From assembly GCF_021401125.1 (NCBI RefSeq), contig NZ_JACBFQ010000001.1:744001-808000 (forward strand): DNA of 64,000 nucleotides, written 5' to 3'. This DNA comes from Xanthobacter sp. NM-59. GTDB lineage: Bacteria; Pseudomonadota; Alphaproteobacteria; Rhizobiales; Xanthobacteraceae. The position numbers and the translations under genes were made by a program. The notes beneath the pieces were generated by a model. It worked only from the letters and a program-made list of their open reading frames with translations, had not been told where the DNA came from and ran no database searches. Below are positions 2,786 through 16,053 of this stretch, piece after piece (within the stretch, counting starts at the first letter, position 1; every line of letters begins with the position of its first letter).

Positions 2786-3217
2786 TCAGTTTTCGTCGCT
2801 CTCACGCGCAGCGCGGATGGAAAGCACCGCATAGACCAGCACCAGCCCCAGCTCCACCAGGGTGAACAGCAGCAGCGGCGTCATGCCCGAGGGGGCCCAG
2901 GCGGCGAGCACCGCCTGCGTCAGGGTGGCGATCAGCCACAGCACGATGGCCCAGCCGGCGCGCAGCCACAGCCCCACTCCGGCGATGGGATCCACGATGG
3001 CCGCCCAGATCACGGCCCCCTGCGCCGCCATGGGTAGCTGCTCGAACCAGGAGGGCGTGCCCTCGCCGACACCGACGATGACCACCCAGTGAATGACGCC
3101 CTCGACCAGCAGGAACACGGCCACCGCGCGCAGGAAGAGGAACAGCCGCCGCCGCCAGGGCGAAAGGCTCTCCAGATGCGCGCGGGCGCTGGCGTCGATG
3201 GGATCGTAATGGCTCAT
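2786..3217 (-). CDS. Small four-span membrane protein (DUF6163-like)
   Basis: This 143-residue protein has a short basic cytoplasmic head (SPWRRR) and about four hydrophobic segments, at roughly residues 24-50, 62-75, 82-105 and 112-132. It resembles the small Rhizobiales membrane family DUF6163; that family name is from memory and should be checked. Its start overlaps the stop of the upstream 3-hydroxyisobutyryl-CoA hydrolase by four bases (ATGA), and it ends 16 bases before the O-methyltransferase start. It is therefore almost certainly co-transcribed and translationally coupled. Function unknown. Confidence 0.8.
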   Translation of the reverse strand: MSHYDPIDASARAHLESLSPWRRRLFLFLRAVAVFLLVEGVIHWVVIVGVGEGTPSWFEQLPMAAQGAVIWAAIVDPIAGVGLWLRAGWAIVLWLIATLTQAVLAAWAPSGMTPLLLFTLVELGLVLVYAVLSIRAARESDEN

Positions 3218-15586: not shown

Positions 15587-15904
15587 TCAGTGCGTGACCA
15601 GCTTCAGCCCCACGATCCCCAGCGCCACGAGGCCGATCGAGACCAGCCGTAGGATGTCGGCCGATTCCGCGTAGAACATAATGCCCACAAGGGCCGTGCC
15701 GACCGTTCCGATGCCGGCCCACACGGCGTATGCGGTGCCCAGGGGGATGCCCCGCAGTGCCAGAGACAGCAGAAGCAGGCTCAGTGCGATCGCGCCGATG
15801 GTGAGAACACTCGGCCAAAACCGCGTGAAGCCTTCAGAATATTTGATGCCGACGGCCCAGGCGATTTCAGTGAAACCGGCCGCGAGCAGATACACCCATG
15901 CCAT
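15587..15904 (-). CDS. gdx: Guanidinium exporter, small multidrug resistance family
   Basis: This 105-residue protein has four membrane spans and the SMR active-site Glu13 in the first (GFTEIAWAVGIKYSEGFTRF). The GFTR-x-P loop after span 1 and PLGTAYAVWAGIGTVGTALVG mark the SugE/Gdx branch, which exports guanidinium, rather than the EmrE drug branch. The guanidine-II riboswitch directly upstream supports that substrate strongly. The start codon has no good Shine-Dalgarno sequence, as might be expected if access is set by RNA structure. It is convergent with the DUF1835 gene. Confidence 0.93.
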   Translation of the reverse strand: MAWVYLLAAGFTEIAWAVGIKYSEGFTRFWPSVLTIGAIALSLLLLSLALRGIPLGTAYAVWAGIGTVGTALVGIMFYAESADILRLVSIGLVALGIVGLKLVTH

Positions 15905-15921
15905 TGGGGAACACCAGGGAA

Positions 15922-15969
15922 GCGGGGTCGTCCCCGCCGCACGAGGGAGAACAGCGCGGCCGTCCGCGC
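15922..15969 (-). ncRNA. Guanidine-II (mini-ykkC) riboswitch controlling gdx
   Basis: Read on the minus strand, two hairpins stand in tandem. GCGCGG-ACGG-CCGCGC lies at 15969-15954 and GCGGGG-ACGA-CCCCGC at 15937-15922, separated by 16 bases and ending 17 bases before the gdx ATG. Two GC-rich stems, each capped by an ACGR loop, define the guanidine-II class, and such RNAs are known to precede SMR guanidinium exporters. In addition, UCCCC two bases before the ATG (15910-15906) could pair with GGGGA of the second hairpin (15935-15931). This suggests that ligand-stabilised hairpin 2 frees the start region; that mechanism is inference. Confidence 0.9.
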
Positions 15970-15971
15970 TC

Positions 15972-15994
15972 GGCGGGGACCGCCTGTCCCCGCC
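15972..15994 (-). other. Third hairpin just upstream of the riboswitch
   Basis: An eight-base-pair perfect stem (GGCGGGGA/TCCCCGCC) with a seven-base loop lies three bases before the first riboswitch hairpin. It lacks an ACGR loop. It may be a 5' stabilising structure or part of a leader attenuator. Confidence 0.45.
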
Positions 15995-16053
15995 CTTCTC
16001 CTTTACCCGATCGCGCCTTCACGACCAGAGGCCCAGCTGAAAAAAATGCCGCA

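Follow-up and report, generated by a model that had tools for sequence, protein, structure and literature searches.

A predicted guanidine-II riboswitch upstream of a Gdx-type exporter gene in Xanthobacter sp. NM-59

The window analyzed here is a 64-kb stretch of the Xanthobacter sp. NM-59 genome, the minus strand of which carries a gdx-type SMR gene with a guanidine-II aptamer upstream of it (Table 1). The Rfam covariance model RF01068 (Guanidine-II, mini-ykkC) matches positions 15971-15923 over its full length (model positions 1-48) at 37.0 bits against a gathering score of 32 (E = 9.1e-4 for 4227 families searched on both strands of the 64-kb window), which is the outcome of a check that an earlier note on this DNA had proposed. 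The interval marked by that note, 15905..15969, corresponds to the Rfam-bounded aptamer plus the 17-nt spacer. No other Rfam family exceeded its own cut-off in a scan of the whole window, and a permissive local scan at the leader returned four other families, each far below its cut-off.

Table 1. Features of the gdx leader and gene in the window (RNA features numbered on the DNA).
Feature	Position	Strand	Description or basis
gdx-type SMR gene, 105 aa	15587..15904	-	SMR profile, Gdx-Clo alignment
UCCCC	15906..15910	-	could pair instead with GGGGA (15935-15931) in the P2 5' arm
SD-like GGUG	15912..15915	-	7 nt before ATG; weak but plausible
P2 hairpin, 6 bp, loop ACGA	15922..15937	-	arms 15937-15932 / 15927-15922, loop 15931-15928
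P1-P2 linker	15938..15952	-	15 nt with 7-bp P1, 16 nt with 6-bp P1
P1 hairpin, 7 bp, loop ACGG	15953..15970	-	arms 15970-15964 / 15959-15953, loop 15963-15960
P0 hairpin, 9 bp, loop AGGCG (not ACGR)	15972..15994	-	found in 9/10 genus leaders
GGTAAA, weak candidate -10 element	16002..16007	-	just upstream of P0; inferred from alignment

The two hairpins with ACGG and ACGA loops lie where the earlier note had placed them; the six-base-pair core of P1 that it described (15969-15964 / 15959-15954) extends to seven pairs, and P2 could also be extended to seven by a possible G15938-U15921 pair. Its gap of 16 bases between the hairpins holds when six-base-pair arms are counted (15953-15938), and its 17 bases from P2 to gdx are those at 15921-15905, followed by the ATG at 15904. 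The gene had also been said to have no clear Shine-Dalgarno (SD) sequence, but this statement is not upheld, as an SD-like GGUG is present at a suitable place and its GGU is invariant across nine aligned gdx leaders of the genus.

We examined conservation at the 80 loci kept from a search with the gdx protein. The nearest gdx loci in named genomes come from Xanthobacter species, four of them with 77-78% identity and a fifth with 68%, and RF01068 is present at all five. It exceeds its gathering score at 17 of the 80 loci (10, 2, 1 and 4 per batch of 20) and is lacking at the other 63; all 17 matches are on the coding strand and end 13-40 nt before gdx. When matches anywhere in a genome are counted, 119 of the 296 genomes of the host family have one over the cut-off and 126 have one at E ≤ 0.001. 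Counted in the same way rather than only at gdx, RF01068 matches occur in 12 of the 14 same-genus genomes listed, NM-59 included, and two same-genus genomes (G130 and G183) have one match each. At three Rhodopseudomonas loci (L065, L069 and L071) a cobalamin riboswitch is located just downstream of gdx, at about 2867-3082.

Of the RF01068 places listed in the family search, 30 were supplied with their loci and a further 60 were added. In total, gdx was found in 128 loci and its start codon was located in 126; at 69 of these, two ACGR hairpins lay within 130 nt, giving 63 distinct leaders. The selection rule itself requires pairs 1-4 in both hairpins of the 63 leaders, so these pairs provide no evidence, and pair 5 is the first free pair of P1. 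Counted from the loop, P1 has a standard pair 5 in 98% and a standard pair 6 in 92% of leaders, compared with 46 and 68% with shuffled partners; the corresponding values for P2 are 86 and 78%, compared with 75 and 69%. Ten leaders belong to the genus (that of the window, L003-L006, L008, L094, L116, L120 and L122); five came from the protein search, the RNA search contributed four and the last is that of the window, which means that the set was partly chosen for having the element. The P2 loop is ACGA in all ten, whereas P1 has an ACGG loop in six leaders and an ACGA loop in the other four. The matched stretch of the window is 80% G+C, a composition that favors hairpins, but a chance pair of GC-rich hairpins that is no riboswitch is extremely improbable for a single match over a curated cut-off in the whole window that ends 17 nt before gdx and has counterparts at every Xanthobacter locus from the protein search.

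The gdx product clearly belongs to the SMR family (PF00893, 105.2 bits versus a cut-off of 23.7). The best NCBIfam model is SugE (NF008512) at 123.1 bits, but its cut-off of 126 is not reached, and we therefore file the protein as a Gdx-type SMR rather than as an NF008512 equivalog. Both transport subtypes occur in the SMR family and the SugE score falls 3 bits short, points that would suit a drug exporter of the Qac/EmrE type whose RNA was either inherited or tuned to another ligand. However, the best drug-exporter NCBIfam model reaches only 75.4 bits, and the best solved chain is the 6wk5/6wk9 sequence (E = 1.1e-25, together with a near-identical chain), with the best EmrE-named chain well behind (E = 1.1e-14). 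In the accessible part of PMC9574504, 6wk9 is named Gdx-Clo, and the residues E13, W16, S42, Y59 and W62 are named there and in the accessible part of PMC10829512 as those of the guanidinium site. The alignment to Gdx-Clo covers 103 positions without a gap, 48 of them identical, and all five site residues are kept. A drug exporter is thus very unlikely, and the gene looks like one encoding a Gdx-type guanidinium exporter.

Because the covariance model, the conservation before gdx and the guanidinium-site residues of the exporter agree, we assign the element to the guanidine-II (mini-ykkC) class, of which it is, as predicted from its sequence, an ordinary and well-supported new example before a Gdx-type exporter gene. 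This also bears out the main claim of the earlier note, a guanidine-II RNA in front of a guanidinium exporter. Class membership, guanidine as the ligand and an ON direction of the response form one joint claim, which we hold with high confidence, binding and the effect on expression being predictions. In the portions of the guanidine-II riboswitch literature that were accessible (including PMC3766115 and PMC7266159, and few subscription papers), no description of the NM-59 gdx locus was found, and no literature match joined Xanthobacter with a guanidine riboswitch.

By analogy with the class, two guanidinium ions would bind as both ACGR loops kiss, a contact that would hold P2 closed and stretch the linker; translation of gdx would then rise and guanidine would be pumped out. 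In the free RNA, an OFF form might pair the 5' arm of P2 (GGGGA) with UCCCC, and ACC of P2 (15928-15926) with GGU of the SD (15915-15913). A helix between CUCGUGC of the linker (15945-15939) and GCAUGGG in codons 2-4 (15901-15895), which can pair, would enclose both. That this specific form is the likeliest structure of the free RNA is a tentative proposal from folding models, and one somewhat more apt to be wrong than right. When the leader is folded from 15972, the P2-closed structure has a free energy of -49.9 kcal/mol and the alternative one of -49.5 kcal/mol, a gap of 0.4. The UCCCC and GGGGA sites of the switch put forward in the earlier note are as described there, and its competing hairpin is nearly as stable as P2, but shuffling the spacer yields hairpins that are as good (p = 0.30 by energy and 0.09 by the gap to P2).

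We extended this competition test, in which P2 pairs are penalized and spacers shuffled 300 times, to the 60 of the 63 leaders in which P2 lies no more than 45 nt from the start (10 from the genus and 50 others); the linker and opening tests described below used the same set. The energy test compares only the stability of P2-excluded folds and hence also counts pairing within the spacer and the coding start. In this test, p ≤ 0.05 was obtained for 24 of the 50 other gdx leaders (combined p = 6e-21, a significance overstated by relatedness among the leaders) compared with one of the ten genus leaders (combined p = 0.33, subject to the same relatedness). In the gap-to-P2 test no leader reached p ≤ 0.05 (0/10 in the genus and 0/50 among the others, with median p values of 0.61 and 0.25). 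P2 is favored by 2.8-9.4 kcal/mol in eight of the ten genus leaders, the exceptions being those of NM-59 (0.4) and L122 (0.0). Given the contrast in the energy test, competition between P2 and the ribosome-binding site (RBS), as proposed for Gloeobacter violaceus in the accessible text of PMC5486947, is likely in many relatives, but the shuffle tests gave no support for it in the genus set of ten. The calculations on the 60 leaders thus support a P2-competing, RBS-covering structure in many of them, although the tests do not all agree. In three leaders (L142, L166 and L167) the P2 loop and 3' arm, GACGACCC, exactly complement GGGUCGUC, which overlaps and runs past an SD-like GGAGG and so offers a clear candidate OFF hairpin.

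Pairing of the linker is the other published guanidine-II model, as far as the accessible parts of PMC9094411 and PMC9300104 show. A role of the linker as an anti-SD found no support in these leaders, as shuffling either the linker or the spacer with P2 held gave p ≤ 0.05 in none of the ten genus leaders and none of the 50 others.

We also calculated the energy needed to open the SD region, using as a proxy for the bound state a fold in which P1 and P2 are held and the linker is open. From the free state to the bound proxy, the energy of opening the SD-to-AUG region drops by a median of 2.7 kcal/mol in the 50 other leaders (19/50 at p ≤ 0.05, combined p = 1e-13, again overstated by the relatedness of the leaders) and by a median of 1.3 kcal/mol in the genus set (0/10 at p ≤ 0.05, combined p = 0.28). 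In NM-59 the same energy rises from 3.6 to 5.8 kcal/mol, which is the wrong direction for a switch. The simple translational switch suggested in the earlier note is only partly supported by the folding models. Across 20 settings of ends and temperature, the energy of opening the SD alone drops in every one (3.2-3.5 in the free state and 1.5-3.4 in the bound proxy, a difference of at least 0.1), such that binding would ease SD opening slightly, but that of opening the SD together with the AUG rises in 16 and falls in only four. Because the kissing contact is left out of these calculations, the opening energies cannot decide the mechanism.

The genus leaders share a further feature, the self-contained hairpin P0, which lies directly upstream of P1 in nine of the ten and is absent from L008. 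The 38 nt before P1 fold with a median of -15.4 kcal/mol in the genus set versus -7.4 in the 53 other leaders, and reach -10 kcal/mol or below in 9/10 versus 15/53. With dinucleotide shuffles of these 38 nt, p ≤ 0.05 was obtained in four of the ten genus leaders and six of the 53 others, a moderate signal for the genus stem. Between species both sides of some pairs near the loop change together (pair 1 is C-G, A-U or G-C, and pair 4 is G-C or C-G), although these changes represent in effect three or four sequence groups, with arms aligned by hand. The Azorhizobium leaders L009 and L011 fail the two-hairpin rule, and an upstream hairpin is visible in them by eye.

Three possible roles for P0 were considered and put aside. 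For a degenerate third guanidine hairpin, its 5' arm has the same sequence as the 5' side of P2 in the window, but none of the nine P0 loops is ACGR. Its 3' arm and the 5' arm of P2 are exact complements over 9 nt in the window leader; counted by hand, the complementarity spans 7-9 nt in six P0 leaders and about 5 nt in the remaining three. Pairing between the two arms was nevertheless not retained as the principal mechanism, as P0 is made first and its own fold reaches -20.9 kcal/mol. Finally, P0 is not a plausible terminator for gdx, because the terminator-like site is only on the plus strand, opposite to gdx; it is on that strand that the P0 palindrome scores as terminator-like.

Just before the P0 stem the genus leaders have a TAAA or TTACAT element, and no match to the sigma-70 consensus was found near P0 in the window. 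A -10-like box occurs 6-24 nt ahead of P1 in 28 of the 53 non-genus leaders, compared with about 0.7 for equally long upstream stretches; the pattern was chosen after viewing the leaders and counted on the non-genus ones. The message may well start with P1 in those non-genus leaders, to judge from this box. For the genus, we infer that the message might begin with P0 and be protected by it. The guanidine-II literature, in its accessible portions and with few subscription papers among them, yielded no account of this extra hairpin.

If the aptamer is real but P2 is nearly always closed in the genus, its output there would not be a swap between P2 and the SD, and guanidine would act otherwise, for instance by altering how stable the message is or in which order it folds. 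Such a reading would account for the lack of an energy excess over shuffled spacers (1/10 versus 24/50 in the others), the strong preference for P2 in eight genus leaders, the lack of ligand-linked opening (0/10 versus 19/50) and the presence of a hairpin before P1 with pair changes on both sides. However, ten related leaders give little power, NM-59 itself is one of only two leaders whose gap does not exceed 0.4, the energies omit the kissing contact and a sigma-70 match near P0 is lacking. Moreover, control by message stability is described for guanidine-III and not for guanidine-II in the accessible part of PMC12186494. We regard such an output as unlikely. The fuller scenario, in which the Xanthobacter gdx leader abandoned the P2/RBS swap proposed for related leaders, acquired a conserved 5'-terminal hairpin and turned to another route of output (stability or folding order), is a distinctly long shot. 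If true, a single bacterial family would contain two output mechanisms for one aptamer. The Xanthobacter set lends itself to testing whether this aptamer can be wired in different ways.

Returning to the assignment as a guanidine-II riboswitch, the NM-59 genome contains further guanidine RNAs outside the window. A guanidine-I RNA (C36:137998-138102, 76 bits versus a cut-off of 63) is followed by a gene for a substrate-binding protein (TIGR03427, 537.5 bits) and then by a permease-like protein that scores under the cut-offs of its models and an ATPase-like reading frame recognized by eye. A second guanidine-II RNA (C36:141065-141111, 38.8 bits) is followed by genes of the UAAP1 and UAAP2 types, which we take to be the carboxyguanidine deaminase, a urea-carboxylase-type gene (TIGR02712, 1808.1 bits) and an allophanate hydrolase. 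The whole run, C36:137998-148043 (1499-11544 of L173), thus combines genes of ABC-transporter type with degradation genes and two riboswitch classes, and it resembles an operon for guanidine import and breakdown. Control of guanidine export by guanidine is very likely in a genome that also has an operon of this type.

With respect to known systems, the NM-59 leader has what is typical of the RF01068 class, namely two GC-rich hairpins with ACGR loops, a linker (15-16 nt) within the 7-40 nt given in the accessible part of PMC7544219 and, 17 nt downstream, a gene for a predicted guanidine exporter. It differs from the class in the additional hairpin upstream of P1 and in its weak SD, and the genus set differs in being without a shuffle-supported P2/RBS hairpin. 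The protein is likewise close to Gdx-Clo, of the SMR-Gdx subtype, in its gapless alignment and its five site residues, but 55 of the 103 aligned residues differ and guanidinium transport by the NM-59 protein is putative. For the leaders of both G. violaceus (PMC5486947) and Pseudomonas aeruginosa (PMC9561414), the accessible texts propose an OFF form in which the RBS is covered by a structure in competition with the aptamer or its flanks, and the form proposed here for NM-59 is similar in competing with the aptamer and covering the RBS. The helix named P0 in P. aeruginosa, in the same portion of PMC9561414, is formed by flanking sequences and covers the SD, unlike the NM-59 P0, which is a stem-loop of its own. 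Operons of Raoultella, Erwinia and Klebsiella have, according to the accessible part of the review PMC12186494, a guanidine-I RNA before them and a guanidine-II RNA inside, and the NM-59 run is arranged alike, with guanidine-I ahead and guanidine-II within; in those operons, however, the deaminase genes go with guanidine-I, whereas in NM-59 the UAAP genes follow guanidine-II.
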